Source of the DNA: a virus
IMG/VR virus record: IMGVR_UViG_3300025771_000004
Coordinates: 1 to 40,371 of that record
Length of the DNA: 40,371 nt
Direction: 5' to 3' (one strand)
Position numbers and translations under genes: made by a program. The notes under the pieces were generated by a model. It was given only the letters and a program-made list of their open reading frames with translations. It had not been told where the DNA came from and made no database searches. Shown one piece after another: positions 2,899 through 36,181 of this stretch (positions are counted from its first letter, which is position 1; every line of letters starts with the position of its first letter).

Positions 2899-3028
2899 CA
2901 CGGACTTAGACGACTTCCTTAGGCAGCTGTTTCCACCGTTGCCTAAGCCATCCACCAGGGAAGCACCTGACTACCGAGATCATACACCCTGGACACCAAC
3001 ATATGACGGCGAAGAGCCACCGTTCTAA
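2885..3028 (+). CDS. Hypothetical acidic proline-rich micropeptide
   Basis: A 47-residue ORF overlapping the preceding one by 14 bases: acidic N-terminus, several prolines, ending YDGEEPPF. The acidic tail with terminal phenylalanine superficially resembles protein-interaction tails of ssDNA-binding proteins, but nothing else supports that. There is no strong ribosome site, so it would rely on coupling. It lies 16 bases before the integrase gene. Confidence 0.45.
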   Translation: MYSDDTDLDDFLRQLFPPLPKPSTREAPDYRDHTPWTPTYDGEEPPF

Positions 3029-3044
3029 CTGGGAGTAAGAACAC

Positions 3045-3866
3045 ATGAACTTGATTGACTTTGTAAACACAGAAGCACCTAACATTTGGCACGGACGTCA
3101 CCTAAAGCAGAGCCAGGCGAAGATGCACCGCTTCGGCGCACACAATGGTGTTGGCTTTAAGGATCTTAAAGATGTCACAGCAATGGACGTACACCAGTTT
3201 GGCCTACACCTAAGGTCGTTAGGTCTAACCGAGAATACAGTTGACCACTACAAGGCGGCTATTAGTGCTATCCTAAGTCATGCATTAGATCTCGAATTAG
3301 TCGACAAGATGCCAAACATTAAGTTTGCGCAGAAGAAGCCTGGTCGTGTACGTTTCTTGTCTGAGGCCGAACAGGAGAAGCTATTAGACTTCTTCAGCGG
3401 TCACAAGCACTGGTGGATGAAACACTGGTGTCAGATCGCACTCAGCACTGGTATGCGTCACGACGAGATCCACAGTATCAACCCTAGCATCGTGGAGATG
3501 CGTGGGAAGGACATGTGTGTCGTGCGCCTAACCAAAACAAAGAACGGCGATGACCGCACGGTGTTTTTATCTGGTAAAGCCTACAAGGCATTGGCTGATC
3601 TAGAGTTCACCCCAGGTGCGCTGTACACAAAGAACAAGTTCTATGACAGCTGGGCTGATGCACGTTCTAAGATTGCACCAGGTGACAAAGAGTTTGTCTT
3701 TCACACACTGAGACATACCGCAGCTACCACAATGGTCAATGACCACAAGCTGCCCACAGTAACCGTGGCAATGCAGTTAGGCCATCGGACGCTACAAACG
3801 ACACAAAAGTACGTGCACCAGAAAGAGGACGCAGCGATGGAAATAGCAAGACTAATGGGGGCCTAA
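3045..3866 (+). CDS. int: Tyrosine site-specific integrase
   Basis: 273 residues with an N-terminal SAM-like DNA-binding domain (about 1-95) and a C-terminal catalytic domain. All signature residues are visible: R138 (STGMRHDEI), a beta-hairpin lysine near 164-166, H220-x-x-R223 (HTLRHT), H247 (LGHRT) and the nucleophile Y256. It should recombine attP with the matching host tRNA gene, making the phage temperate. A GGGAG ribosome site precedes the ATG and a strong terminator begins within the last codons, isolating it from the RNA polymerase gene. An integrase just upstream of a T7-type polymerase is also the order in integrase-bearing cyanophage and SAR11 podoviruses. Confidence 0.95.
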   Translation: MNLIDFVNTEAPNIWHGRHLKQSQAKMHRFGAHNGVGFKDLKDVTAMDVHQFGLHLRSLGLTENTVDHYKAAISAILSHALDLELVDKMPNIKFAQKKPGRVRFLSEAEQEKLLDFFSGHKHWWMKHWCQIALSTGMRHDEIHSINPSIVEMRGKDMCVVRLTKTKNGDDRTVFLSGKAYKALADLEFTPGALYTKNKFYDSWADARSKIAPGDKEFVFHTLRHTAATTMVNDHKLPTVTVAMQLGHRTLQTTQKYVHQKEDAAMEIARLMGA

Positions 3867-3878
3867 AGGCTCCCTTTT
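3857..3878 (+). terminator. Terminator after integrase
   Basis: GGGGGCC (3857..3863), loop TAAA, GGCTCCC (3868..3874) with one G.U pair, then TTTT. It overlaps the integrase stop region and insulates the RNA polymerase gene from integrase transcription. Confidence 0.85.
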
Positions 3879-3975: not shown

Positions 3976-6435
3976 ATGACGAATGTCGTAGAACTACAGG
4001 CACAATTAGAACAAGAGATGATCCAACGAGGTCAGGAGAGATACCAGAAACGTCAAGAGAAACTAGCACCCAGTCAACGTGAGATACCACATCAGATTAT
4101 AACTGAAGTGTTACCTAAAGTATCTTCCACCATTGTCAGATATCTTAAAGAAGATGAACACAGGTTTGACAGTGGTAGAGGACGCAAGTCTGAATGGTAT
4201 GAACCACTGGTTGACCTGGATCCTGACACCCTAGCCTATATAGGTCTTAACTGTTGTTATGAGACTGTCTTAAAGCAGAACTCACTGGCAGGGTGTTACT
4301 CTATGATTGGCAATAGGGTTGAACTAGAGATTTGGGCTGACGATCTCAAACAGTATGACAACAGTCTGTTCCAACGTCTTAAACATCAGGTGACCAGAGA
4401 TCACTCAAGTGAACGCTACAGGATCAAGGCTGCACGTATCATAGCCTCAAAAGCTGGCTTTGAGTTTCAAAAGTGGGGACGTGCGATGAAGGTCAAGGTG
4501 GCATCTCCAATACTTAATGCCATCCTAGAGTCTTCAGACATCTTCGAGGTCGCAACACACGAAGAAAACCTCAAGACACATAGGAACCTAACGCTGACTG
4601 ATGAGGCTACAGATCTCATTAACCAGAGGGTCTTTGATGCATCCTGGGCAGAACCTATGTTTGGACCCTTGGTTGTACCACCTAAGCCTTGGACGTCTTT
4701 TGAAACTGGGGCATACCAGGACAGCATGTTGTCAGCCTTGGTACCTATGGTGCGTAAGGCTACCTCAGAGCAACGCAGGGCACTTGTGAGAGACTTTGAG
4801 AAGAACCCTGAGCCTTTGTATGTCAAATCTATTAACGCACTCCAGGCCACCCCTCTTAGGATCAACAAGCGTGTCTTGGATGTCTTAGACTATTGCGTCA
4901 AAGAGAAACTAAGGTTTTCTAAGTTTCCTGACCTAGAGCCACCAGAGTTTCCTAAGTTACCTGACGACTTCGACAGTCTACCTGAGAAGACCCAGCGTCA
5001 GCTAAAGCGAGACCAAAAGGACTGGCATCTAAAGCGTAGGGAGTCTGTAGCTAACCTAGTTGTCATGGATGATGACTTACGTCAGGCACACAGGATGTCT
5101 GAGGTACCTCAGTTCTATCTACCGTGGTCCTTTGACTTTAGAGGGCGCATGTATCCTGTGTCTCACTTTAACTATCACAGGGATGACCATGTAAAGGCAC
5201 TCTTTGAGTTTGCTAGAGGTAAACCTGTGGCTGAAGAGGACAGAGGATGGCTTGCGATACACCTGGCTAACGTAGGTGACTTCGAAAAGATCTCGAAGAA
5301 AAGCCTAGACGACAGGATTCAGTGGGTCATAGACAACGATCAGTGGTTACGTCTCGTCAATGACAACCCTATTAGAACCTTTGATCTCTGGACCCAAGCT
5401 GACAAACCGTTCCAGTTCCTGGCAGCTATCTTTGCTTACTACAGTGATGACCCAGTGTGTCACCTTCCGATCTCTTTAGATGGAACTAACAGTGGCGTAC
5501 AGCACTATGCCCTGGCACTACGGTCATCTGAGGATGGGCACATGGTAAACCTATTGCCTGATAACAAGTGTCAGGATGTCTATCAGACTGTGGCTGACCG
5601 GGTGATCCAGGATCTGACTGAAGATGGATCTGACGAGGCAGTCAAATGGCTCGACTTCGGTATCACCAGGTCAACCGTAAAACGCAATGTCATGACCTAC
5701 GGCTACTCTAGCGTGGAACGCGGGTTTGGCGATCAGATCATTGAGGATCTCATGCAGCCACTACAAAAGGATGTGAACTATGGAACTATAGATGAGCATC
5801 CGTTTGGTGACCCAAGAGAACAAGAGCACTACGCGCGGTTCCTCGCTAAGTTTAACTATCAGGCAGTACAAAAGGTCATCTCTAGTGTTGCCCAGGGTAT
5901 GGCGTTCTTACAGTCATATGCTGACGCATTAGCACGTGAAGGTAGGTCAGTTCGTTGGACAACCCCTAGCGGCTTCCCAGCCATCCAGAGGTACACCAAG
6001 CCTGATGTCAAACGTGTGCGGATCTTCTTGTATGACCGAGAAGCTAAGATGCCAAAGCCATCACGTCTTACCTTGCACGGCATAGGTCCTAAATATGACA
6101 CCAGGAAAGCACGGGCTGGCGTCGCGCCTAACTTCGTGCACTCGCTCGATGCTGCCCACATGCAGCTGGCGATCTGCCACGGTTTAGACCAGGGCATCGA
6201 GGACTTCTTCATGATCCACGACAGCTTCGGAACTAACGCAGCAGATACCTGGGCATTCTACCACAACATACGTCATGCAATCGTCGACATGTACGAAGAC
6301 AACTGTGTCTTAGGTAACTTCGAGATTGAGTGTCGTAACCGCCTGGCTAATCCAGACATGGATTTAGCACCAGTACCAGAGAAGGGAGATCTAGACGTTA
6401 GAGCAGTCTTAGAGAGCGAATATTGCTTTAGCTAA
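3976..6435 (+). CDS. T7-type single-subunit DNA-directed RNA polymerase
   Basis: 819 residues, slightly shorter than T7 (883) and SP6 (874). Visible motifs in order: the region DFRGRMYPVSHFN (T7 WRGRVYAVSMFN), motif A with catalytic D502 (SLDGTNSGVQH), motif B R-x3-K569 ... Y577 (RSTVKRNVMTYGY), motif C with catalytic D749 (MIHDSFG), and a C-terminal foot ending LESEYCFS, comparable to the T7 FAFA end. All catalytic residues are intact. It should transcribe replication and late genes from the three related promoters in this genome. The ATG at 3976 follows AGGGAG. Its preceding promoter suggests positive autoregulation. Confidence 0.97.
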   Translation: MTNVVELQAQLEQEMIQRGQERYQKRQEKLAPSQREIPHQIITEVLPKVSSTIVRYLKEDEHRFDSGRGRKSEWYEPLVDLDPDTLAYIGLNCCYETVLKQNSLAGCYSMIGNRVELEIWADDLKQYDNSLFQRLKHQVTRDHSSERYRIKAARIIASKAGFEFQKWGRAMKVKVASPILNAILESSDIFEVATHEENLKTHRNLTLTDEATDLINQRVFDASWAEPMFGPLVVPPKPWTSFETGAYQDSMLSALVPMVRKATSEQRRALVRDFEKNPEPLYVKSINALQATPLRINKRVLDVLDYCVKEKLRFSKFPDLEPPEFPKLPDDFDSLPEKTQRQLKRDQKDWHLKRRESVANLVVMDDDLRQAHRMSEVPQFYLPWSFDFRGRMYPVSHFNYHRDDHVKALFEFARGKPVAEEDRGWLAIHLANVGDFEKISKKSLDDRIQWVIDNDQWLRLVNDNPIRTFDLWTQADKPFQFLAAIFAYYSDDPVCHLPISLDGTNSGVQHYALALRSSEDGHMVNLLPDNKCQDVYQTVADRVIQDLTEDGSDEAVKWLDFGITRSTVKRNVMTYGYSSVERGFGDQIIEDLMQPLQKDVNYGTIDEHPFGDPREQEHYARFLAKFNYQAVQKVISSVAQGMAFLQSYADALAREGRSVRWTTPSGFPAIQRYTKPDVKRVRIFLYDREAKMPKPSRLTLHGIGPKYDTRKARAGVAPNFVHSLDAAHMQLAICHGLDQGIEDFFMIHDSFGTNAADTWAFYHNIRHAIVDMYEDNCVLGNFEIECRNRLANPDMDLAPVPEKGDLDVRAVLESEYCFS

Positions 6436-23061: not shown

Positions 23062-26000
23062 ATGGCTCAAGACAACTTGACAGCCTACGCGCAGTGGCTT
23101 GTCCAAAACAAGGACAAGAAGGGGACCCCAGAGTTTGACAAAGTCGCTCGGGCGTTCCAGATGCTACAAGCCGCAGGGCCTCGCCAAGCTGAAGCACCAG
23201 TAAACCCACCAGGCACTGGTGTTGGACGCTCGTGGCAGCGAGGTGTCATTGGTACAAAGCAGGGTATTTACTCTGGTATTGCAACTAACGCTGCAAACAC
23301 CTTGGAAAGCATGGATGTCGACAGGCTAACGACAATCAGACGTGCTTTAGATATTGTTGTTCCTGAAGATGCTTTGGCAATGATGGAGGCCGATGGTACA
23401 CTCCAGGCTCTTGGTAGTGTAAGAAACGAAGAAGAGCTAAATCGTTGGTTTGACTCTTTAGACCGTGACTTTGACCTAGGACCACAGAACGTCGCAAAGT
23501 TGAAAGCGATGGTCGGTGGTGCAGAGGCTGCAAAGTCTGACTACCGTGCCCCAGGTGGTAAGTTTGAGACTGTACGTGAGACAGGACAAGACGCTCTAAC
23601 ACGTGCGTCTGAGCTTGAAGCTGACCGAGCGGCACTTCCCATGTCTCCAGTGGCCCAGCGCGGCGCACAGGACTTCCAGGATGCCGAAGGAGTCATGGAT
23701 TGGGCGCGTAAGTCATTCAAAGATCCTATGGCTGCACTTGCCTTCATCGGTGAGACCGCAGCTGAGACTGGTCCAGCAATGGCAGCTGGTATTGGTACAT
23801 CTGTCGTAACAGGCAACCCACTGCTCGGCGCGGGTATCATGATCGCTGCGTCAACACCCCGTGAATACGGTGGTGAGGTCATGAGTTTCCTGCGTGAACA
23901 AGACATCAATGTGTCAGACCCACAAGCCATCCGTGAAGCCATCGACAATGGCAACATTATGGCTGAAGCTCAGAAACGTGGCCTAACCAAAGCAGCCATC
24001 ATTAGTGCCTTTGAGGCTATCGGTATGAAAGGTGGCGGTGGTATACTACTGCAAGGTGGTAAACAGGCGTTCACAGGTGGTGCGGGTGAGGCAACATCAC
24101 AAGTTGCTTTAGATGGTGAAATCACGTCTGCCAAAGAAGTCGCACTTGAAGCAGTAGCAGAACTTGCAACAACACCAGGCGAAGCCGCGATCCTATATAC
24201 AAAGAATGGCACACTAAAAGATCCAGACAGCCTAGACGATACCCAAAGACAGGCAGCTGGTGACCTAGCGCGTACATTTAAGGCTATCACAGACGCAAAC
24301 CCTGACTTTAATCTAAAAGACGTCGACAAAACGTCAGCTAAAGGTGCCCGTGCCGTCGTTGACCAGGCTCACATTCAACTAACCGAGGCACTAAAGCAGC
24401 GATTTGCTGACATGAAGTCCCGCGTGAAGCCGAATCAGACAGATACATTCGAAAGTGTGTCCGAGAAGATCCTAGCGGCAGCTGCATACCGTGAAGGACG
24501 CAACAAAACTAAGTCAATCGTCGGTAATCAAGAATTAGACGCCCTAAAACGCCTCGCTGGGGACACCAGAGAAGGCCAAGAGGCAGTCAACCTGATCCTA
24601 CAGCTAAACCAGCTAACAGAATTGCATAATAGCGGCTACCAGGGCGGTCTATCGTCCTTCACTGATCAGTTTTCTGTCTTTGGAAGCAAGGTTGGTTACG
24701 ATAAAGGTGCTGTCGCTACAGAACGTCTACTGCGTCCCCTAATTAGTGGTGGTGCAGCTGTTCAAACTGGTGGTCTGAGCATTCCAGCCCAGATGGCTGT
24801 ATCTGGCGGTGGTCGAGCAATCGATAAACTAACAGGCAACTATAGTCAGATCGACAAGTTCGTCCGTCGAAACGCTGAAACACCTGGTCTACAGCAACCT
24901 ACAGCACCATCACTACGTGACGCAGCCGCAGCACAGCTACAGGCCGACGAAGACGCAAAGCAGCGTGAAGAGGCATTACGCACTGCACGTGAGGCAGAAC
25001 AGCGTCAGTTGAACCTACAGCTGGCACAACAAGACGCCCCCGCAACCCCAGGCAGTCCACAGTTCACTATGGAAGATGCCACGGGTCTGTCACGTGATGG
25101 TGTCGCTCGTATCTTGCGTGTTCTAAAAGGACGTAATGACAACCCTGCGCTAACACGTGCAATTCAAGAGTATGAGCAGAGTGTTGCCACAGGTGGTCGC
25201 ATTGAGGACCTAAGCCCACTGATCCGTGCGGTACGTCAGTTCCAACAAGATAACCCAGAGTACGTGCCAATGGTTCGCCCACCGAACTCATTGAGCAACC
25301 CGATGCTGGCAAACCCAGCCGCACCTGGTCAGCCGCCAGCTGTTGGTACGACTGAACCTAACCCAGTGCAAGCACAGACGTTTGGCCCACAGTTCACAAC
25401 TCAAGAGAACTACAACCGTGGCATCGAGGCTAACAAGGCGATGAACGCTGAGTTGGTTGAGGGTGTCACTACAGATCCAGAGTTGAACCGCGTACAGAAG
25501 GGACGTCTGATTACGTCTCTGGATGTCCTAGCAAATAACCTAGGTTCAGACCCAGTAGCAGCCGCACAGGAACAAGTGCAGAAGCTGGAAGAGGCTGGTG
25601 TACCAGCTGAGGCAGTCGAGAAGTATATACAACCGTATGTGGACCGTGTGGCGCGTCAACAGGCGGCACGTGATGTAGGCCCACGTATGGCTATGGCACC
25701 ACAGGAAGATGCCCCAGCAAACGCAGACCTATGGTCAGTGCCACCCCAGGCGTTCAACTCAGCTGACACGTCGATCAACAGTGGTAAACTACCAGCTGGC
25801 TTTACTGAGCTAAAGAAACAGGGCGTGTTTGAAGAAGGTCAGACCGTTGTCGACATCGGCGGTGGTCGTTTTGATAACGCTGTCGAAGACCTGGCAAAGC
25901 AGGGCGTGACACTGAAAGTATACGACCCGTTCAACCGTTCAGCGATGCACAACGAGACTGTCGTGTCCGAAATTGCAAACGGTGGTGCTGATGCCGCTGT

Positions 26001-28767
26001 GTCAAACAACGTGCTAAACGTGATTCAAGAGCCTGAGAACATCAACCGTGTTGTACGCCAGGCACACAACGCTATCCCTGATGGCGGCAAGGCATACTTT
26101 ACTGTCTACGAAGGTAAAGGCGACGGTGTTGGTACTGAGACATCAAAAGGCTGGCAGCGTAACGAGAAGACACAAGACTACGTTGCACGTATCGAGGAAG
26201 TCTTTGGACCAGGTAACGTCACCCGTAAAGGCAAAGTCATTACTGCAACCAAAGCTACTAGTGCGTCACCAATTGCATCCGCAATTCAAACTGCACCAGG
26301 GCAATCATACGTCAACCCGCTACAGGTCCCAGATAATGAGATTGATGCAACACGCCTAAATGATTCACCAAGCGAAGCAGACATCCAGAAGATGCGTGAG
26401 GGCACATACAAGCCAAAGACAAAACGTAATCTGGTCGAAGCAGCTGACTACATGTACCAGAAGTGGAAAGCAGCCACAGGACGTGACGAACCGTTTGAGT
26501 ACACACCTGAGAACGTCGACATCATCTCCACCTACATGGCGACAGAAGCTGTCAACGCTCTACAGAGTGATGCTAACGCCATCGGATGGTATGACCGAAA
26601 GTTGAAAGCCGCGAAGCGCGTGGTGTCTCTTGTGGACCCACGTGTGACGCAATCCGCAGATGCAGAGGCTGCATTTGACTTTGCTCTAGCAGTTACTTCT
26701 AATGGTCAGGCCGTTGCCGATAACTTTGCGTATGCGCATGAGGTGTTTGGTTACTTCATGGATAATGGTGTGATGCCTACGACTACCTGGAAGAAGGGTG
26801 GTGAGCGCAATGCATCTATGGTCGAGGCATTCGACTTCTTTAATGCTTACCAGGCGTCAGGCACTAACATGCCTATCCAAGACTTCCTAGACAGCGACTT
26901 CACTGTAAATGAACTCAATATGTACATTGCACGTTTTAACGAGCAGTATGGTACAGAGATCAAAGTACCTTCGTCTGAAGGTGCAAACGCTGAGGTCAAA
27001 GGCTCCTACGTCATCGGCCCGAAGATTGGTCAGGGCTTCTACCAAAACATCCGTGGCAACTATGATCCACTAACGATGGACATCTGGTGGATGCGCATGT
27101 GGAACCGCTTGGTCGGTCGTCCGTTTGTAGCAGACCCAGATCTCGACAAAGGTCGTGTTAACGTCAGGGATGCTATGAAAGGCGCGGGTAAACTTGAACA
27201 GAAGATGATCAATCAGACGCTGAAAGAAATGGGCGTCGGTAAACGTGAGATCAACAAAGACTCTGCACTGTTCGACGACTTTGTTACTAACGTAGAGAAG
27301 AAGTATCAGAAGTTCTACAAGCAGTATAAGATCGATAACGGTGTTAACCATAACAAGCCTAACTTCTTCAAGAAGACTGGCACACACGTCAAGAACCTGA
27401 AGCCACAGCTACAGGCACAACCTAAAGGGCCAAATGAACGCGCGTACATGCGTGAGGTCACAAAGGCCGCAATTGCTAAACTAGCTGATCTTGGCTATGA
27501 TATCGAAACAGCTGATTTCCAGGCACTTATGTGGTACCCTGAGAAGCAACTGTTCAGACATTTAGGTGTTGCCCCTGGAAGAGGCGCAGATAATGACTAT
27601 CTAGATGCTGCAATCATGCTTGCGGAAAGCGAAGGAATAACAAATGACCAAATCCAAGAAGCACTCCCCGATGCAGACGGAGACGGAGCCGTCAATAATC
27701 AGTCAGGTGCCCAAGGAGTCAATGAAAGACTTTATCGAGGGCCTAGTGGCGATGGCGAAGGCCAAACGCGAGCAGCAATTGCCCCAGTCACAGATGGAGT
27801 CGCAGGGATCCTCGCGTCCAGGCTTGCGGGTGGACCCACCCAACGGTCTTCTGTCCCAAGTACCCAAGAGGTAAAGCAAGCAGCTGAACCTGTCCGTGCA
27901 ATCATCGAGGTTGGTAAGAAGGGCAGCAAGTACGAAGACGGGATCAAAGACATCAACCAGGTACGTGAGTTGGCAGATGCTATAAACGTAGCCCTGAAGA
28001 TGTATAGCGATCAGCGTAAAATGCGCTTTGATGCTAATGCTCCAAACTCTACAGATGCTATGGGTCTCTATGAAGCTGGTAATGCCTATGCATTGGATCC
28101 ACAGGCGGCTGGCTCAGAGTTTCAATCTTACATCACTGCACTTCATGAAGTAGCGCACGGTCTAAACGATCAGCGTTACAACCCAGCCTTGTTGAGTAGT
28201 TTTGATGAGGATGTACAACAAGAGTTGATGGGTAAATTAGCTGGTTACCCTGGACCAATGACAAACAAACTTACAGGACGGAAAGAATATATCCGACGCG
28301 GTTCGTTTGATGAGTTCATCGGCGCGATGTTGTCTGGTGGAAGTAAGGTTCCTAAAGATTTACAAAAGATGGTTTTGAAGGAAATGAAAGATCTTCAGGA
28401 CCAAGGTCAGTACCGTGATGGAACTGATGTCAGATACAAAGGCGGTACTAAACGCACATTGGCACAACGCAAGTCTACCCCTTACTACAAATACATCAGA
28501 AGCACACCTGAAATGGCAGTTGATCCTGTCATCTACTACTTGCACGATCCGAAAGGCATGAAGAAGAATTACCCAGCGACAGCTGAGATGATTAAATCTT
28601 TCTTTAGCAAAAGCCCAAAGATCCAGTTCTACAGTCACCCACTTGCAATGGCGTTTGCCGTCGCATTGGCGATACTGATGAAAGCAGAACAGGAAGACGA
28701 GCAAGAGAAGCAAATGCCACCAGGCGCATTGAACCAACCAATGATGCCTGGAGCACTGTCTGCATAA
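23062..28767 (+). CDS. Giant virion protein: methyltransferase-like and HEVAH metallopeptidase-like domains
   Basis: 1901 residues in one frame. The N-terminal repeat-like start (QWLVQNKDKKGTPEFDKVA) is a common lead of large ejected podovirus proteins, followed by alanine-rich helical domains. Residues about 905-1060 hold a class I SAM-methyltransferase pattern: VVDIGGG with D931, then LKVYDPF and SNNVLNVI. Residues 1695-1699 are HEVAH, a gluzincin-type zinc motif in a compact domain, followed near 1858-1876 by a membrane segment (HPLAMAFAVALAILM). It is probably ejected into the cell with the genome. Activity of either enzyme domain is inferred, and no lytic transglycosylase signature like T7 gp16 was found. 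Confidence 0.8.
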   Translation: MAQDNLTAYAQWLVQNKDKKGTPEFDKVARAFQMLQAAGPRQAEAPVNPPGTGVGRSWQRGVIGTKQGIYSGIATNAANTLESMDVDRLTTIRRALDIVVPEDALAMMEADGTLQALGSVRNEEELNRWFDSLDRDFDLGPQNVAKLKAMVGGAEAAKSDYRAPGGKFETVRETGQDALTRASELEADRAALPMSPVAQRGAQDFQDAEGVMDWARKSFKDPMAALAFIGETAAETGPAMAAGIGTSVVTGNPLLGAGIMIAASTPREYGGEVMSFLREQDINVSDPQAIREAIDNGNIMAEAQKRGLTKAAIISAFEAIGMKGGGGILLQGGKQAFTGGAGEATSQVALDGEITSAKEVALEAVAELATTPGEAAILYTKNGTLKDPDSLDDTQRQAAGDLARTFKAITDANPDFNLKDVDKTSAKGARAVVDQAHIQLTEALKQRFADMKSRVKPNQTDTFESVSEKILAAAAYREGRNKTKSIVGNQELDALKRLAGDTREGQEAVNLILQLNQLTELHNSGYQGGLSSFTDQFSVFGSKVGYDKGAVATERLLRPLISGGAAVQTGGLSIPAQMAVSGGGRAIDKLTGNYSQIDKFVRRNAETPGLQQPTAPSLRDAAAAQLQADEDAKQREEALRTAREAEQRQLNLQLAQQDAPATPGSPQFTMEDATGLSRDGVARILRVLKGRNDNPALTRAIQEYEQSVATGGRIEDLSPLIRAVRQFQQDNPEYVPMVRPPNSLSNPMLANPAAPGQPPAVGTTEPNPVQAQTFGPQFTTQENYNRGIEANKAMNAELVEGVTTDPELNRVQKGRLITSLDVLANNLGSDPVAAAQEQVQKLEEAGVPAEAVEKYIQPYVDRVARQQAARDVGPRMAMAPQEDAPANADLWSVPPQAFNSADTSINSGKLPAGFTELKKQGVFEEGQTVVDIGGGRFDNAVEDLAKQGVTLKVYDPFNRSAMHNETVVSEIANGGADAAVSNNVLNVIQEPENINRVVRQAHNAIPDGGKAYFTVYEGKGDGVGTETSKGWQRNEKTQDYVARIEEVFGPGNVTRKGKVITATKATSASPIASAIQTAPGQSYVNPLQVPDNEIDATRLNDSPSEADIQKMREGTYKPKTKRNLVEAADYMYQKWKAATGRDEPFEYTPENVDIISTYMATEAVNALQSDANAIGWYDRKLKAAKRVVSLVDPRVTQSADAEAAFDFALAVTSNGQAVADNFAYAHEVFGYFMDNGVMPTTTWKKGGERNASMVEAFDFFNAYQASGTNMPIQDFLDSDFTVNELNMYIARFNEQYGTEIKVPSSEGANAEVKGSYVIGPKIGQGFYQNIRGNYDPLTMDIWWMRMWNRLVGRPFVADPDLDKGRVNVRDAMKGAGKLEQKMINQTLKEMGVGKREINKDSALFDDFVTNVEKKYQKFYKQYKIDNGVNHNKPNFFKKTGTHVKNLKPQLQAQPKGPNERAYMREVTKAAIAKLADLGYDIETADFQALMWYPEKQLFRHLGVAPGRGADNDYLDAAIMLAESEGITNDQIQEALPDADGDGAVNNQSGAQGVNERLYRGPSGDGEGQTRAAIAPVTDGVAGILASRLAGGPTQRSSVPSTQEVKQAAEPVRAIIEVGKKGSKYEDGIKDINQVRELADAINVALKMYSDQRKMRFDANAPNSTDAMGLYEAGNAYALDPQAAGSEFQSYITALHEVAHGLNDQRYNPALLSSFDEDVQQELMGKLAGYPGPMTNKLTGRKEYIRRGSFDEFIGAMLSGGSKVPKDLQKMVLKEMKDLQDQGQYRDGTDVRYKGGTKRTLAQRKSTPYYKYIRSTPEMAVDPVIYYLHDPKGMKKNYPATAEMIKSFFSKSPKIQFYSHPLAMAFAVALAILMKAEQEDEQEKQMPPGALNQPMMPGALSA

Positions 28768-29176: not shown

Positions 29177-29465
29177 GGAAACCATCAAGCCAGTCGTCGA
29201 CCAGGCAAAAGAGGACGCCAAAAGGGCGGTAAGTATCATGAAGAAAGAGTATGACATCGAAGACCCACGCGCTGAGGAAGCACTCGAAACCGCAGTGGAG
29301 ATCATGCGTACACCAGTACACAACCGTGATCGTCTTCAAGCAGCCAAGTTGATCCTGGACTTCACCAAGGTCAAACCTGTCGCCAAGTCTGAGATCACTG
29401 TCGGTAAAGCTGAGGAGTTCCTAAGCTCACTGCTAGATACCAATGACGGTGACGACCAAGACTAA
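28977..29465 (+). CDS. Putative terminase small subunit
   Basis: 162 residues immediately upstream of the large terminase, which it overlaps by 23 bases. The N-terminal third is very basic (KEPRKKKPAKPKLMPGRARP), fitting DNA binding. The middle is helical (AVSIMKKEYDIEDPRAEEAL) with a block RDRLQAAKLILDFTKVKPV seen in small terminases, and the C-terminus is acidic. A GGAG lies before the ATG. No sequence motif is diagnostic, so the assignment depends on gene order, size and charge. Confidence 0.65.
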   Translation: MGHPPKEPRKKKPAKPKLMPGRARPAHKNPLALQHQTPEGRAKFREMLKNRKNKGGRPLGVPDGHSKETIKPVVDQAKEDAKRAVSIMKKEYDIEDPRAEEALETAVEIMRTPVHNRDRLQAAKLILDFTKVKPVAKSEITVGKAEEFLSSLLDTNDGDDQD

Positions 29466-31050
29466 GCCGACGATGGCTACTAAGGAGCAGCTGGCTGAGG
29501 TCCGTAAGCGACTGTATACTGACTTTAGCTTCTACGCGAAGGGTGCACTAAAGATCCGCACTAAGTCAGGTGACATTGCGCCCCTCAAATTGAAACCAGC
29601 CCAGAAGATCCTCAACGACGCTGTCACTAAGCAAATGGAGACAGAAGGCAAAGTCCGAGTGATCATTCTGAAGGCGCGTCAGCAAGGTCTATCGACCTAC
29701 GTTGGCGGCTACCTGTACTTCAGTGTCTCCCAGCGCAAAGCTGCGAAAGCCCTAGTGATTACCCACCACAGTGACTCAACACGCGCCCTGTTCGATATGA
29801 CCAAGCGTTACCATGAGAACTGCCCTGAGATCCTGAAGCCACACACAAAGTATTCATCCCGCCGAGAGTTGTCTTTTGACGTTCTAGATAGTTCCTATGT
29901 CGTTGCGACAGCTGGCGGTGAAGCTATTGGTCGGGGTGAGACCCTGACCCACGTTCATGCGTCGGAGCTTGCGTTCTGGTCCAAGACCACCGCTGCCGAC
30001 AACTGGAACTCGCTGACCCAAGCTGTCCCCAATACTAAAGGCACCGCTATATTTGTCGAGAGTACAGCCAATGGTGTCAGCGGGATCTTCTATGATCTCT
30101 GGAAAGGTGCAGTCGAGGGAACCAACGGCTACGTGCCTGTGTTCATCCCTTGGTTTGCAGACCCAGAGTATCGTGAGACGGTCCCAGAGAACTTTGAGCG
30201 TACCCCAGACGAGGAAGAGCTTGCGTCCAAGTATGACCTCGATGACGAGCAGCTAATGTTCCGTCGCCGTAAGATCGCACAGAACGGTCTCGACCTGTTC
30301 AAACAGGAGTACCCCTCAGAGCCTGAGGAAGCCTTCCTGACGACAGGTAGACCCGTGTTTAACCCAGAACAGCTACAATCGTCTATGGGTACTACACAGG
30401 ACGTACAGGAGCGCCTAGCACTCGAAGGTGAAGACTGGCTGAATAACGTCCGAGGTGAACTGACGATGTACCGTCGTCATGACCCTGGTGAACAGTATGT
30501 CATCGGTGCCGACGTCGCTATGGGCGTCCGTGGTGGTGACTACAGTGTTGCCCAGGTCCTCGACAGTAAGAAGCGACAAGTGGCAACCTGGAGAGGCCAT
30601 GTGCACCCAGACTACTACGCGACTGTGTTGTATCACTTAGGTCAGTTCTTCAACACTGCGTTCATCATTGTCGAGAACAACGGTCACGGCCTTTTGACGT
30701 GTACCAGGTTGGCTAAAGACATGGCCTACCCGAACTTCTTTACTGAGGTTCAAGTCGACAAGCTGACGGACAAAGAGACCATTAAGTTGGGCTTCAGTAC
30801 GACAGCAAAAACCAAGCCTCTGATCATTGACGAGCTACGAGCGTCTGTCCGTGAGAACGAGATAGAACTCAATGACAAAACAACGATCCGCGAAATGCTC
30901 ACCTACGTCGTGACTGAGAGCGGATCTATGGAAGCTGAACCAGGATGCTACGACGACTGTGTCATGTCGTTGGCATTAGCCAATCACGTGCACGAAGGTG
31001 CCTGGGAGCCGATAGAGAGTGCAGATGACTATTACATTGAAATGGTATGA
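29443..31050 (+). CDS. Terminase large subunit
   Basis: 535 residues. The ATPase domain has a deviant Walker A, K77-ARQQGLST85, and a Walker B-like HVHASELAFW. The nuclease domain has D357 (IGADVAMG), E411 (VENNGHG) and D504-D505 (CYDDCVMSLAL), the RNase H-like acidic set. It cuts concatemers and pumps DNA into the prohead. The type resembles headful-packaging terminases more than T7 gp19, agreeing with the circular map. The start may be 29473 (MATKEQLAEVRKRLY); neither start has an obvious ribosome site. The stop overlaps the portal start (ATGA). Confidence 0.92.
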   Translation: MTVTTKTKPTMATKEQLAEVRKRLYTDFSFYAKGALKIRTKSGDIAPLKLKPAQKILNDAVTKQMETEGKVRVIILKARQQGLSTYVGGYLYFSVSQRKAAKALVITHHSDSTRALFDMTKRYHENCPEILKPHTKYSSRRELSFDVLDSSYVVATAGGEAIGRGETLTHVHASELAFWSKTTAADNWNSLTQAVPNTKGTAIFVESTANGVSGIFYDLWKGAVEGTNGYVPVFIPWFADPEYRETVPENFERTPDEEELASKYDLDDEQLMFRRRKIAQNGLDLFKQEYPSEPEEAFLTTGRPVFNPEQLQSSMGTTQDVQERLALEGEDWLNNVRGELTMYRRHDPGEQYVIGADVAMGVRGGDYSVAQVLDSKKRQVATWRGHVHPDYYATVLYHLGQFFNTAFIIVENNGHGLLTCTRLAKDMAYPNFFTEVQVDKLTDKETIKLGFSTTAKTKPLIIDELRASVRENEIELNDKTTIREMLTYVVTESGSMEAEPGCYDDCVMSLALANHVHEGAWEPIESADDYYIEMV

Positions 31051-33086
31051 TCACTATGGATAAAAAAGACTACAAAGCGGTGGACGACGATAAACTCGTT
31101 ACGATCCTCGATGATAACATCCGTAGATCTATCGGGTATTATGATTCACAGATATCCAGAGAACGCCGCAAGGTCATAGACTTTTATAACGCTACGCTCC
31201 CACGCCCAGCGCACGACGGTAACAGTAAGTATGTCTCTATGGACGTCTATGATGCTGTCGAGAGCATGAAGGCTGCGCTGCTAGAAACTTTCAGTACTGG
31301 CTACAAGACCGTGCGTTTTGCTGCACAGACTGGAGAGGACGTGCGTATCGCTGAGATCGCTACAGCCTACTGTGACTACGTTGCAAACCGTCAGAACAAC
31401 CTGTTCGAGGTTATGCAGTCTGTTATCCACGACGGTCTCATTGCACGTGCTGGTCTCTGTAAGGTTTACTGGGACGAGCGCGAAGACAGCTACCTAGAGC
31501 CTATCCAGGATCTGACTGAGGAAGAGTTTGACGCTATTGTTGCCCAGGACAACGTAGAGATCGAGGAAGTCGAGCAAGACGAACTTGGTCTGTACTCTGG
31601 TGACCTTCGCGTCTTCCAGGACACCAGTCAGGTGGTCATTGAGGCCATTGCACCTGAACAGTTTGTCATTGAGCCACAAGCTAAGTCTTTAGACGACGTT
31701 GGCTTCTTGGGTCATCGCACGACTATGACAATCTCAGAACTACGTGAGGCAGGGTATGACGAAAAGCTCATTGCTAAGATCGGCGATCACGAAGACGTCG
31801 AAATGGAAACCGATCCAGAGGTCCTGGCACGTCACGAAGAGATTGGTCAAGACCGTGGCTTCAACGCTAAAGGTTTCCAGGATCAAGTTAGAAGCATCAC
31901 TGTTTATGAACTATATATCGACATCGATCTCGATGGCTCTGGAATCGCTGAGACGTACAAAGTAATCAAAGCTGGCAACGTAGTGTTGCACAAAGAGAAG
32001 TGCACCTACAAACCGTTCTGCGCCTTTGTACCACTACCGATCCCACACTCGTTCTTTGGTTCCAACTTCGGGTCCAAGGTTGTCCCTATCCAGACTGCAC
32101 GTACAGTTCTGACACGCTCGATCCTAGATCACGCGATGATCACGAACAACCCACGTTACACTGTGGTCAAAGGTGGTCTAACGAACCCACGTGAACTGAT
32201 AGACAACCGTGTCGGTGGTATCGTCAATGTGTCACGACCTGACGCCATCAGTCCGATGGTACAGGCACCGTTGAACCCGTTCATCTTCCAGACAATTCAG
32301 ATGTTGGACGAGGACAAAGAGGACACCACAGGCGTCTCACGTCTTTCCCAGGGCCTCAACAAGGATGCCATCAGTAAGCAAAACTCAGCGGCTATGGTTG
32401 AACAGCTGGCGACTATGTCACAACAGCGTCAGAAGATCATTGCACGTAACTTTGCGAACAACTTCTTGAAACCTCTGTATCAGCTGATTTACCAGCTGGT
32501 TGTCGAGAATGAACCACAAGCCAAGATCGTTGAGATCGCTGGTGATTACGTGGCGGTCAACCCAGGTGACTGGGGATCTAAACGTGATGTCACTGTCGAG
32601 ATGCACCTAGGCTACGGTGAACAGGAAGCTGAAGCACAGAAGTACCTAGTGCTGCACGGTCTGATGTCTCAGGATCCAACATTGTCAACAATGTATACAC
32701 CTGAGAACCAGTACAACCTCATGACACACGTCATGGAACAGAACGGCATCAAGAACGTCAAAGACTACCTAACGCCACCACAAGAGCAACCACCAGAGCA
32801 GCCAGATCCAGCACAGGAGATGGCAATGCAGATGCAACAGAAGCAAATGGAGCTTCAAGAGCGTCAGACAGCGGTTGCTGAGATGAAGGCACAGATGGAT
32901 GCCCAAGTTGCCCAGATGAAACTACAGCTGGAGCAAATGAAGGCACAACAAGGCTTTGCGATCCAGTCAGACAATATGGATCTGAAAGAGGCACAACTGG
33001 AACACAAGCAGTTTGTCGACAAAGCCGAACTAGAGATTGCGAGAAACGCAGACGACGTCCGCGCTATCGCTTCACCAACTGGATAA
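31047..33086 (+). CDS. Portal protein (P22-type)
   Basis: 679 residues, coupled to the terminase by ATGA. The N-terminal SMDVYDAVESMKAALLETF block, a beta-rich wing region with many acidic residues, the stem-crown part with TTGVSRLSQGL and a long glutamine- and methionine-rich C-terminal coiled coil (about 590-670) together resemble P22-like podovirus portals and not the 536-residue T7 gp8. It forms the dodecameric channel at the packaging vertex. An alternative start lies at 31056. Confidence 0.85.
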   Translation: MITMDKKDYKAVDDDKLVTILDDNIRRSIGYYDSQISRERRKVIDFYNATLPRPAHDGNSKYVSMDVYDAVESMKAALLETFSTGYKTVRFAAQTGEDVRIAEIATAYCDYVANRQNNLFEVMQSVIHDGLIARAGLCKVYWDEREDSYLEPIQDLTEEEFDAIVAQDNVEIEEVEQDELGLYSGDLRVFQDTSQVVIEAIAPEQFVIEPQAKSLDDVGFLGHRTTMTISELREAGYDEKLIAKIGDHEDVEMETDPEVLARHEEIGQDRGFNAKGFQDQVRSITVYELYIDIDLDGSGIAETYKVIKAGNVVLHKEKCTYKPFCAFVPLPIPHSFFGSNFGSKVVPIQTARTVLTRSILDHAMITNNPRYTVVKGGLTNPRELIDNRVGGIVNVSRPDAISPMVQAPLNPFIFQTIQMLDEDKEDTTGVSRLSQGLNKDAISKQNSAAMVEQLATMSQQRQKIIARNFANNFLKPLYQLIYQLVVENEPQAKIVEIAGDYVAVNPGDWGSKRDVTVEMHLGYGEQEAEAQKYLVLHGLMSQDPTLSTMYTPENQYNLMTHVMEQNGIKNVKDYLTPPQEQPPEQPDPAQEMAMQMQQKQMELQERQTAVAEMKAQMDAQVAQMKLQLEQMKAQQGFAIQSDNMDLKEAQLEHKQFVDKAELEIARNADDVRAIASPTG

Positions 33087-33091
33087 ATCCC

Positions 33092-33217
33092 ATGAGACGT
33101 CGAAACCCAGTAGCCCAACAAGTGAGGACTGCTAGGTTTCGGCCTCGGATTGTCCAGGTCAAAACCAAACAGCTTCCACGTAAAGCGAAGCATAAGAAAA
33201 GAGAGCAGCATGACTGA
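33092..33217 (+). CDS. Small basic phage protein
   Basis: 41 residues, strongly basic: MRRRNPVAQQVRTARFRPRI then a lysine-rich tail. The opening RNPVA-x2-VRT-x2-FRPR-IV is a pattern I recognise in short proteins located between portal and scaffold genes of many tailed phages. It overlaps the next gene by 8 bases. Possibly binds DNA or an assembly partner; function unknown. No strong ribosome site, so it may be coupled to the portal. Confidence 0.6.
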   Translation: MRRRNPVAQQVRTARFRPRIVQVKTKQLPRKAKHKKREQHD

Positions 33218-33470
33218 AGAAGAACTCATTCAGCACGGTGAGGACGCAGAGGTATTACTCAAGTCCCCAGCGTTTAACAACGTGGTCAACAAGCTAGTGG
33301 AACAGACGTTCCAGAACTTTGTGAACTCGAAACCAGAAGAGAACAAAGAACGCTCGATCACTTATTACCACTATCGCGCCCTAGTCGACGTGGTGAACAC
33401 ATTGAAGCAACAAGTCGCCATCCGCGACGAGGTGCTGGCAAAGCGCGACAATAGCGAAGAGGAAGCATAA
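33210..33470 (+). CDS. Hypothetical head-region protein
   Basis: 86 residues from the ATG at 33210 with GAGAG upstream; an in-frame start at 33150 is less likely. It is mostly helical: acidic start (MTEEELIQHGEDAEVLLKSP), central FNNVVNKLVEQTFQNFVNSK and a final coiled-coil (LVDVVNTLKQQVAIRDEVLA). Placed between portal and scaffold, it may assist head assembly. No known family recognised. Confidence 0.72.
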   Translation: MTEEELIQHGEDAEVLLKSPAFNNVVNKLVEQTFQNFVNSKPEENKERSITYYHYRALVDVVNTLKQQVAIRDEVLAKRDNSEEEA

Positions 33471-33475
33471 GGACC

Positions 33476-34546
33476 ATGGATAACGTCCAAGACAACGCTA
33501 CTCAACCACGGGCATTAGACGACATGTTTGATGCCTCCGAAGCCATTCTAGATCGTTGGTCAGACGGTGAGAACCTATCTGAAGAGGACGAGAAGCTAGA
33601 GGCGACTGACGACTCACTTGTCGGCGAGACAGACGAAGAGACGTCAGATACCTTAGATGACGATGAAGACCTTGAAGAAGTAGAAGATACAGAAGAGGAC
33701 CCTGACACGGATGACACTGAAGACGAGGATGAACCAGAGACAGATCAAGAAGATGATGAAACGGAAGTTGAGTTGTCTGACGATACTCTGGTTGAAATAC
33801 AAGTCGACGGTGAAGCCAAACAGGCATCCTTAAAGGATCTAAAGCGACTATACGGTCAAGAGGCGTCATTAACACGTAAGTCTCAAGAAACAGCTGCCAA
33901 ACGTAAAGAAGCCGAAGAGGCTTTGGCAAAGGCAGACATCAGCTATCGAAAGCTCCTGGAACGTGCTGAAGCGCGTATGAAGCCATATGCCGAGGTAGAC
34001 ATGCTGGTCGCAAGTCGACAGATGTCCACTGAGGATTTCGCTGCATTACGTCGTGAAGCCCAGGAAGCCGAGAAAGATCTCAAGTTCCTACGAGAGGAAG
34101 CTGACGCATTCTACAGGGACGCTCAAGCACAACAACAAAAGCAAGTGCAAGAAGCTGCCCAGAATTGCGTTAAGGTCCTAAGTGAGCAACTGCCCGACTG
34201 GGGTGATGAACTATACAACAACATCCGTTCATACGCAGTCAGCCAGGGCTTACCCCAGGAACAAGTCGATCAATATGTTGACCCTGCGGTCATCATGATC
34301 CTCAACAAGGCACGTCTTTATGATCAGACAAAAGCCACAGCGGAAACAAAGAAAGCGAAGGCCAAAGTGATCAAGACAAAAGAAGGCACCCGTAAAGTAC
34401 TGAAGACGAAGAAAGCACCTCGCTCAGATGCCGACCTAAAGGTCCAGCGTCAGAAGAGTGCACAAGACCGTCTAAGGTCAAACACGAGCCGTTCTGGTGA
34501 CCTAGAGGATATCGCTGATGCTCTGATGTCACGTTGGGAGCGATAG
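33476..34546 (+). CDS. Capsid scaffold protein
   Basis: 356 residues located directly before the major capsid gene. The first 115 residues are extremely acidic (runs of D and E). Then a long helical, alanine- and glutamate-rich coiled coil follows (about 130-240), and the C-terminus is basic with the tail DLEDIADALMSRWER. That order of acidic domain, coiled coil and positively charged capsid-binding end is usual for scaffolding proteins of podoviruses. No protease motif seen. The start at 33476 overlaps CCATGG. Confidence 0.85.
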   Translation: MDNVQDNATQPRALDDMFDASEAILDRWSDGENLSEEDEKLEATDDSLVGETDEETSDTLDDDEDLEEVEDTEEDPDTDDTEDEDEPETDQEDDETEVELSDDTLVEIQVDGEAKQASLKDLKRLYGQEASLTRKSQETAAKRKEAEEALAKADISYRKLLERAEARMKPYAEVDMLVASRQMSTEDFAALRREAQEAEKDLKFLREEADAFYRDAQAQQQKQVQEAAQNCVKVLSEQLPDWGDELYNNIRSYAVSQGLPQEQVDQYVDPAVIMILNKARLYDQTKATAETKKAKAKVIKTKEGTRKVLKTKKAPRSDADLKVQRQKSAQDRLRSNTSRSGDLEDIADALMSRWER

Positions 34547-34581
34547 CACTCAACTCTTAAAATCAGAAGGATGTAACCAAA

Positions 34582-34637
34582 ATGGCTACATATACAACTT
34601 ACGACCAGGTCGGTAAGAAAGAAGATGTATCGGACAT
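34582..34637 (+). CDS. Major capsid protein, exon 1
   Basis: The first 18 codons plus two bases (MATYTTYDQVGKKEDVSD) of the capsid gene, behind an AGAAGGA ribosome site. Reading on without splicing meets TAG only six bases after codon 19, so the unspliced message gives a 20-residue fragment. The last base is T, forming the U.G wobble with G34650 required at a group I 5' splice site. Joined to 34893 the frame reads D-I-I-S-D-I-T-P-T-D-T-P, the usual N-terminal motif in this capsid family. Confidence 0.9.
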
Positions 34638-34892
34638 TAAGTAGAAATGGTGTCCTTTCAGCGTAAGCTGTCAAAATAAACCGTGTGAACTCAGGGAACA
34701 TCCTACGGGACAATCCTGAGCCAAGCCTTGAAGTTTCAAGGAAGGTGCAACGACCATCCAGAAATGGAGTAGGGCCAAGTGGTCCGAAGCGCACGGCCCC
34801 TGTAAAGGGTGATGATATGGTCTGATCTATATGGCATAACATATAGCTGTCGAAAGACGGTCTGGTATTAACGACACCAGGCGAACAACAAG
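34638..34892 (+). ncRNA. Group I self-splicing intron (subgroup IA-like) in the capsid gene
   Basis: 255 bases ending in G. P1: exon GGACAT (34632..34637) pairs with 34650..34655, with U.G at the splice site. P10: GAAATG (34644..34649) pairs with exon-2 CATTTC (34893..34898). P2: CAGC-GTAA-GCTG (34659..34670). P3: CCGTGTG (34681..34687)/CGCACGG (34790..34796). P4: CTCAGG (34690..34695)/CCTGAG (34715..34720), in P and Q strings like AACTCAGGGAAC and AATCCTGAGCC. P6a: 34726..34741. P7: GACCAT (34752..34757)/ATGGTC (34817..34822). P7.1 (CCA-GAAA-TGG) and P7.2 (GGGCC-AAGT-GGTCC) are subgroup IA hallmarks. P8: 34798..34809. P9: CTATATG/CATATAG (34827..34846). No homing endonuclease ORF is inside. 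Confidence 0.95.
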
Positions 34893-35721
34893 CATTTCCG
34901 ATATTACACCAACAGATACGCCCATGTTCACAATGATGCGTTCAGAGAAAGTCTCTGCTCGTACATTTAGTTGGCTTGAAGACTCACTTGCAGCTGCCGC
35001 GGATAACGCACAGGTGGAAGGGGCCGACGCAACTATGGCAACTCTAACAGATGCTGTAGAGCGTACAAACAACACACAGATCCTACATAAGGCATTCCAG
35101 GTGTCTGCAACTGCTGATGCGATTGCAACATATGGTCGTGCGAAGGAAACTGCGTACCAACTTGGTAAGGCACTTAAAGAGATCAAGCGCGACCTAGAGC
35201 GTGCTTATGTCGGTGTCGACAACGCAGCGGCTTCTGGCTCAAGCTCAGTAGCACGTGAGATGGACTCAGCGACACAGCAGATCACAACATCTGTCGACGC
35301 TGGTGCCAACGCAACTGACGCTCTAACAGAGGCGAAAGTCCTAGAGCTTGGTGAAGACTGCTTCAACAACGGTTCTGACCCAACAGTTCTAATGATCAAA
35401 CCAGCTGACGCTCAGATCGTTGCAAACTTTGCAGCGGCATCTGGACGTAACCGTGAGATCGCCCAAGGACGCAACTTGGTCAACGTGATTGACCTGTACG
35501 TGTCTCCATACGGCGAATACAAAGTGGTTCTAAACCGCCACCAGTTGACTACACATGCATTCCTAATTGATCCGTCAATGTGGCGTTCATGCGTACTACG
35601 TCCGTTCTCACGCACACTGTTGGCGAAAAACGGTGACTCCGACAAACACTTTATCGTCGGCGAATACTCATTGAAGCATATGAACTATGCTGACGGTGGT
35701 ATGATCACAGGTCTTTCATAA
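34893..35721 (+). CDS. Major capsid protein, exon 2
   Basis: Exon 2 completes a 294-residue protein (56 + 829 coding bases, 295 codons with stop). Features of the DUF5309/SU10-like HK97-fold capsid family are visible: SDITPTDTPMFTMM near the N-terminus, the E-loop region SARTFSWLEDSLAAAADNA and the block PTVLMIKPADAQIVANFA. The HK97-fold shell protein is the most abundant virion component, so every copy would depend on intron splicing. A start at the ATG 34924 would make a 265-residue protein lacking the N-arm and with no ribosome site in front, so it is not preferred. A long hairpin terminator follows. Confidence 0.92.
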
Positions 35722-35747
35722 GATCTAACACACACACACACGACATA

Positions 35748-35773
35748 CCTAGGTCCCACCCACGGGGCCTAGG
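35748..35773 (+). other. Strong hairpin after capsid gene
   Basis: CCTAGGTCCC (35748..35757) pairs with GGGGCCTAGG (35764..35773), ten pairs with one G.U, around loop ACCCAC. It is not followed by T's, so it probably protects or processes the capsid mRNA 3' end and does not terminate by itself. It overlaps the first arm of the next structure by two bases. Confidence 0.6.
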
Positions 35774-35856
35774 ACACAGATGAGGGGCATCCTCGTCGTC
35801 CTGGGGTTTCCGCTCTCCTTACCCTGGACGACTTGGGTGTCCCTCTTTTTGTTTTT
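35772..35856 (+). terminator. Compound terminator downstream of the capsid gene
   Basis: GGACAC (35772..35777) closes with GTGTCC (35837..35842), followed at once by CTCTTTTTGTTTTT. Inside are GATGAGG/CCTCGTC and GTCGTCC/GGACGAC (35795..35801 with 35826..35832). The position after the capsid gene is the same as the main T7 late terminator. Genes for adaptor and fibre downstream would then be read at a lower level. Confidence 0.75.
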
Positions 35857-35869
35857 CTAAGGGGAACCC

Positions 35870-36181
35870 ATGAGCACTAAGAAAACAGGCGTCGATCTAT
35901 TAGGCGTCAATACGGACTTCATACAGCAAGGCGATGACGTCGTCCGTAAGCACACACAAGAGATATCACAGTCATTCCTAGACGATCTTAAAGACAGTCG
36001 GAATGCATCTAAAGACCAGCGCGAGGGTGAGTTCATGCGCGTGGCCTCAATACCAACCGTCGTCGTCGAGCAATGGCTCCGCGAGGGTTTCAACATATGG
36101 GAAGCTACAGGCCCTGAGATTGTCAAACGTCTCAGAGATCAGAACCTGGATGGCTTCATGGCAACTGAGAAAAGGATCTGA
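35870..36181 (+). CDS. Hypothetical head-tail region protein
   Basis: 103 residues with an AGGGGA ribosome site. It is mostly helical and soluble, with the block VASIPTVVVEQWLREGFNIWE followed by ATGPEIVKRLRDQNLDGFMAT, a pattern I recognise from small proteins following capsid genes in marine podoviruses. The role is unknown; a head-completion or assembly factor would fit its position between capsid and adaptor genes. Confidence 0.75.
   Translation: MSTKKTGVDLLGVNTDFIQQGDDVVRKHTQEISQSFLDDLKDSRNASKDQREGEFMRVASIPTVVVEQWLREGFNIWEATGPEIVKRLRDQNLDGFMATEKRI

Follow-up and report, generated by a model that had tools for sequence, protein, structure and literature searches.

The window, i.e., the whole 40,371-nt stretch of phage DNA analyzed here, contains a major capsid gene whose 5' part is interrupted by 255 nt. 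With a probability of about 95%, this segment is a self-splicing, ORF-less intron of subgroup IA in an SU10-type capsid gene and a member of a mobile intron family specialised for capsid genes. Judging from its sequence, the element appears to belong to a known kind, namely group I introns, and the assignment to subgroup IA is suggested by the P7.1 and P7.2 hairpins located between P7 and P3.

The window belongs to a T7-like aquatic phage with an SU10-type head module, in which the capsid gene follows the terminase, portal and scaffold genes. The SU10-type portal and capsid module (29443–36181) occurs alongside T7-like replication genes, so the genome is a mosaic. A tyrosine integrase gene (3045–3866) directly precedes a gene for a T7-type RNA polymerase (3976–6435), and the phage is apparently a temperate T7-like one. 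Its DNA polymerase is nearest to those of Roseobacter and Pelagibacter phages (46% identity), and the nearest cultured relatives of the capsid protein are only about 39% identical. A large protein (1901 aa) encoded in the virion region (23062–28767) has almost no family match (phrog_14016, about 100 residues only).

The capsid frame starts at ATG 34582 and runs through MATYTTYDQVGKKEDVSDIK to an in-frame TAG, which occupies intron bases 5–7, upstream of the ribozyme core (Table 1); translation of this open frame gives 20 residues. When the two exons are joined and the 255 nt are removed, a stop-free frame of 294 aa is restored, and the product of exon 2 alone matches PF17236 (SU10_MCP) and phrog_1328 (major head protein). 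Both the translation and the PF17236 match bear out the original prediction that the frame stops after 20 residues and resumes 255 nt later. The intron had been placed 19 codons into the gene; its location in the capsid gene was confirmed, and the exact insertion point was found to split codon 19, following 56 nt of coding sequence (phase 2). The longest ORF of the interrupted gene begins at 34924, which is 30 codons late. One consequence of such introns is that, in many aquatic phages, gene callers shorten or overlook the capsid gene, which is a common marker.

A covariance-model search, proposed as a check of the prediction, revealed a match with Rfam family RF00028 over the full model length (34628–34846; 74.2 bits, E 3.6e-17; curated cut-off 50 bits), which was the sole Rfam match anywhere in the window. 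Together with the restored 294-aa frame, this match supports the predicted group I intron without an ORF in the major capsid gene. P1 is formed by 6 bp between GGACAU at the end of exon 1 and GUGUCC, with U34637·G34650 at the 5' junction, and P10 by a perfect 6-bp pairing of GAAAUG with CAUUUC at the start of exon 2. Both helices point to identical splice sites, and the last base of the intron is G34892 (omega-G).

Table 1. Features of the interrupted capsid gene and its predicted intron in the window.
Feature	Position	Strand	Basis
Head scaffolding protein gene, directly upstream of capsid gene (late operon context)	33476–34546	+	phrog_3927, E 1.1e-25
Likely ribosome-binding site of capsid gene, AGAAGG	34565–34570	+	Sequence; inferred from spacing to ATG 34582
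Capsid exon 1 (18 codons + 2 nt, 3' end GGACAT)	34582–34637	+	Sequence; L002 empty-site alignment
ORF-less group I intron, 255 nt, starts TAAG, ends G	34638–34892	+	RF00028; identical copy in L012–L014; covariation
In-frame TAG ending translation of unspliced mRNA	34642–34644	+	Translation
P10 strand GAAATG (with exon-2 CATTTC, 34893–34898)	34644–34649	+	Sequence; site-19 P10 test
Internal guide sequence GTGTCC (P1 with exon 34632–34637)	34650–34655	+	Rfam match; folding; P1 test
P2 hairpin	34659–34670	+	Folding; covariation model
P3 (34681–34687 with 34790–34796), encloses P4 to P7.2	34681–34796	+	Covariation
P4 (34691–34696/34714–34719), P5 (34701–34703/34708–34710)	34691–34719	+	Covariation model
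P6 (34720–34721/34745–34746), P6a (34726–34731/34736–34741)	34720–34746	+	Rfam match; covariation model
P7 (GACCA 34752–34756/TGGTC 34818–34822), pseudoknotted guanosine-binding helix	34752–34822	+	Covariation
P7.1 (34757–34760/34765–34768), P7.2 (34772–34776/34781–34785), subgroup IA hairpins	34757–34785	+	Covariation
P8 (34798–34801/34806–34809)	34798–34809	+	Rfam match; covariation model
P9 (34827–34833/34840–34846), P9.1 (34848–34851/34856–34859), P9.2-like (34860–34866/34876–34882)	34827–34882	+	Folding; covariation model
Capsid exon 2	34893–35721	+	PF17236, E 3.7e-72; phrog_1328, E 4.5e-71

The proposed splicing would proceed in the usual two steps: the transcript would bind guanosine in P7, the G would attack after U34637, and the 3'-OH of exon 1 would then attack after G34892, with P1 and P10 as guides. 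The spliced mRNA would encode the 294-residue capsid protein; unspliced mRNA would give a 20-residue peptide only, because the in-frame TAG precedes the core. A second intact capsid gene was not seen within the window, and it would follow that particle yield depends on splicing.

In IMG/VR, 323 loci code for relatives of the spliced 294-aa capsid protein. Most of the 80 closest ones are uninterrupted, including capsids 97–99% identical to that of the window, which answers the proposed comparison with intron-free homologues; 9 of the 80 carry an interrupted gene. Alignment with the intronless locus L002 (99% identical capsid) gave two blocks that abut exactly at 34637/34893, with the 255 nt absent. 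Since this empty site meets at the junction predicted from both P1 and P10, the ends of the intron are fixed independently. The same alignment ruled out read-through, a frameshift or a pseudogene as causes of the interruption. An intron identical to that of the window is present in L012, L013 and L014 (the same virus in other assemblies), related introns occupy the same site in L038, L040, L064 and L071, and in L069 and L039 two different positions of the capsid gene are occupied by related introns.

All the helices named in the original prediction could be placed, and nearly all of them contain pairs with two-sided changes. Among 44 related introns, 46 of the 64 modelled pairs, including the P7 pseudoknot, showed two-sided changes that keep the pairing, and the covariation score was 0.425 vs. 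0.158 (sd 0.007) for shuffled and at most 0.136 for slid controls. P7 is paired in 100% of cells, and at one of its pairs 33 sequences have UA and 11 have CG. P3 (98.7% of cells paired) has two-sided changes in 4 of 7 pairs, P4 (97.7%) has them as well, and in P7.1 and P7.2 they were found in all nine pairs (94–98% paired). The single-strand RNA folding z-score of the window intron was −4.1. P1 suits its own exon better than those of other introns (0 of 2000 permutations were as good), with the qualification that the choice of boundaries itself used P1. Among 20 site-19 introns, P10 changes in step with exon 2 of the respective virus (5.5 pairs on average; 1 of 5000 shuffles did as well).

To evaluate the distribution of such introns, IMG/VR was scanned for the intron core pattern and searched with the capsid-family profile. 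At least 123 exon–intron–exon junctions, corresponding to at least 87 distinct introns, were found in SU10-type capsid genes, and RF00028 confirmed 44 group I introns in 20 related capsid loci. The introns have a median length of 257 nt. With the few unresolved junctions set aside, they span 235–308 nt, and the capsid introns with settled boundaries (235–310 nt) have no homing ORF. The capsid family contains at least about 20 insertion sites; the main ones by codon are 19 (at least 20 distinct introns), 107 (at least 14), 222 (at least 13), 26 (at least 8) and 225 (at least 5–6). Codon 19 is the site of the window intron, and many rarer sites exist besides these five. The call of 'site 16' in L179 is probably an error for site 19. 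Splice sites are uncertain in the distant multi-intron loci L118, L140, L146 and L148 and in gap three of L177, all of which were kept out of the analyses of P1, P10 and cross-site pairs.

The number of introns per capsid gene ranges from 0 to 5, with two to four in many phages (e.g., four in L084 and three each in L104, L210 and L233). The SU10-type capsid gene of L292 (9136–11330) consists of six exons and five introns, and removal of the latter yields a continuous 309-residue capsid protein (164.9 bits against the family profile). Another contig, L036, contains two capsid-family genes (111–992 and 3004–3873; 570 and 141 bits), which may point to a capsid paralogue or a minor capsid protein.

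The core pattern was derived from capsid introns, so the rate of host genes is biased and the following counts apply among the matches listed. SU10-type capsid exons adjoin 82 of at least 251 core matches in IMG/VR. In 96 downstream flanks of the remaining distinct introns, the most frequent matches are to major head families, namely phrog_267 (23), phrog_3437 (16) and phrog_283 (11), whose counts overlap, and phrog_1357 and phrog_9953 (4 each); by Pfam, they are Phage_capsid_2 (14), Phage_capsid_4 (13) and P22 coat (4). The remaining flanks include anaerobic ribonucleotide reductase, DNA polymerase, RNA polymerase, ssDNA-binding and annealing proteins and endonucleases. Thus, among the matches listed, roughly half of the introns interrupt a capsid gene, and in the contigs sampled this intron subfamily resides in capsid genes more often than in any other. 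A related core was also found in the DNA polymerase gene of the Acinetobacter phage vB_Ab_1137_KEN_02 (PP841130.1, 27619–32791), whose annotation is split into three pieces, with HNH genes separating and following them.

The introns cluster by site on their tree (82 introns; 25 site changes vs. 55.5 in shuffles). In site-19 comparisons, introns were 97–98% identical where the exons were only 73–77% identical. For L217 and L243, the identity was 97.7% in the intron vs. 74.5% in exon 2 and 73% in the upstream 900 nt; for L038 and L240, it was 92.3% vs. 64.5% and 61.7%, respectively. Because the site-19 introns are far more alike than the surrounding genes, horizontal transfer into the same site is indicated. 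Same-site introns therefore appear to move between diverged viruses, with structural constraint on the intron also widening the contrast.

Both the clustering by site and this contrast are predicted by DNA homing, in which the endonuclease is supplied in trans by a free-standing gene of the same or a co-infecting phage and the mini-intron has lost its own endonuclease gene. We regard this explanation as a serious one, at slightly less than even odds. In agreement with it, genes of the endonuclease VII, HNH and GIY-YIG types lie next to some other IMG/VR introns sharing the core. However, HNH, HNH_3, GIY-YIG, LAGLIDADG_1 and phrog_3339 had no match in 11 intron-bearing records including the window, which are mostly fragments, and a homing endonuclease was found neither among the window ORFs scanned nor within the 255-nt intron, which is thus not of the endonuclease-encoding mobile type. 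Sister introns also occupy different sites that appear to share only the 4–5 bases paired by the guide sequence and no sequence on the 3' side, whereas endonuclease sites straddle the insertion, and recurrence in unrelated capsid families is left unexplained by homing. A 61-locus cluster considered as endonuclease evidence was rejected, as it had been chained via chance ORFs inside the introns themselves.

New sites nest within or beside clades of older sites: 56 within 225, 59 beside 26, and 23 (L174) within 19. At site 23, the capsid motif S-D-I recurs four codons downstream of site 19. In 10 such cross-site pairs, the five positions upstream of the insertion (−2 to −6) gave 32 matches vs. 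12.7 expected (0 of 20000 draws), and the six positions downstream of it gave 12 vs. 15.3 expected. Such a pattern would be demanded by guide-sequence pairing and seems unlike the trace of a site-straddling endonuclease. The upstream-only matching is partly circular, since the boundaries required a P1 of at least 4 bp, and survival alone could yield it, as ectopic insertions that can be spliced need a matching P1. Exon co-conversion is not claimed from the shared TCGGACAT before site 19; P1 alone can account for it, given that no serine codon other than TCG has G in third position.

A mobile, capsid-specialised family, as preferred here, would enter new sites in which 4–6 bases match the guide sequence. 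The pattern fits an IGS-guided, reverse-splicing-like spread into abundant capsid mRNA. We tentatively suggest, as a possibility well short of the likely one, that capsid genes may be a sink for ORF-less introns: excised introns would reverse-splice into the most abundant late mRNA at 4–6 guide-matching bases, and the product would be fixed through reverse transcription and recombination. If true, movement at the RNA level would explain the many sites per gene, the presence of up to five introns, the target likeness limited to the guide and the recurrence in several unrelated capsid families.

It seems improbable that the intron serves as a regulator, with the rate of splicing controlling when or how much capsid protein is made. 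The structural gene is interrupted near its start, in 80 of 80 introns tested an in-frame stop follows the 5' splice site by no more than 38 nt, and the idea that introns are co-opted for regulation has been put forward (PMC3984707); against this, a near-identical virus (99% identical capsid) lacks the intron, and genes differ freely in where such introns sit and how many there are (0 to 5). The early stops as such were rejected as a special adaptation, since the other frames stop equally early. A decaying or mis-assembled capsid gene with an unspliced insert, to which the stop after 20 residues in a single environmental assembly might point, is very improbable given the identical intron in three further contigs, the preserved exon frame and splice sites and the about 20 distinct introns at the same site; a dead intron would match RF00028 too, yet would leave no capsid protein and lack the 98% conservation.

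The self-splicing intron proposed here shares its P7.1 and P7.2 core with T4-type subgroup IA2 introns (td, nrdB, nrdD) and with phage DNA polymerase introns. These reside in nucleotide or replication genes and usually carry an endonuclease ORF. Among the best GenBank matches of the window intron, several fall in DNA polymerase genes (67–77% identity). The preference of phage group I introns for genes of nucleotide and DNA metabolism was called mysterious in 2025 (PMC12350094); a large set of gene-less introns concentrated in capsid genes, at about 20 or more sites and with up to five per gene, runs counter to both this preference and the view of spread by endonuclease homing. The proposal that group I introns reverse-splice into sites with 4–6 complementary bases is an existing one (PMC3984707), and a passage of the same source cites their spread by this route in fungal rDNA. 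As there, new sites appear to share only a 4–6 nt guide match with old ones; however, the fungal spread is known from rRNA genes and not from phage structural genes, for which it is inferred here from sequence alone.

The original prediction treated the capsid location as exceptional, which does not hold, since capsid introns are on record in LittleE and crAss-like phages and the capsid gene is the commonest home in the sampled contigs. In mycobacteriophage LittleE, RT-PCR and N-terminal protein sequencing demonstrated a capsid-gene intron that is efficiently spliced late in infection (Pope et al. 2013, PMC3706429); Tuc2009 is cited in a passage of that paper on capsid-gene introns. Both LittleE and the window phage have a group I-type intron in the major capsid gene, but that of LittleE is 819 bp long with a predicted opposite-strand LAGLIDADG gene, whereas the window intron has 255 nt and no ORF. 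Moreover, LittleE has one intron, and its capsid gene and host are unrelated to those of the window. In crAss-like phages (Delta and Zeta), four introns are found in one capsid gene (five fragments, Zeta group) (PMC7886860). The likeness consists in a capsid gene split by several introns in metagenomic phages; however, the crAss-like introns were found via intron-encoded endonucleases in large gut phages, whereas those described here are ORF-less, 235–310 nt long and occur in small aquatic phages. In the open literature, no account was found of introns lacking an ORF that occupy many positions in a single phage capsid family. A capsid intron by itself is not new; what is new is the scale, i.e., a compact, gene-less, capsid-centred, multi-site set, which is a natural system for testing RNA-level mobility.
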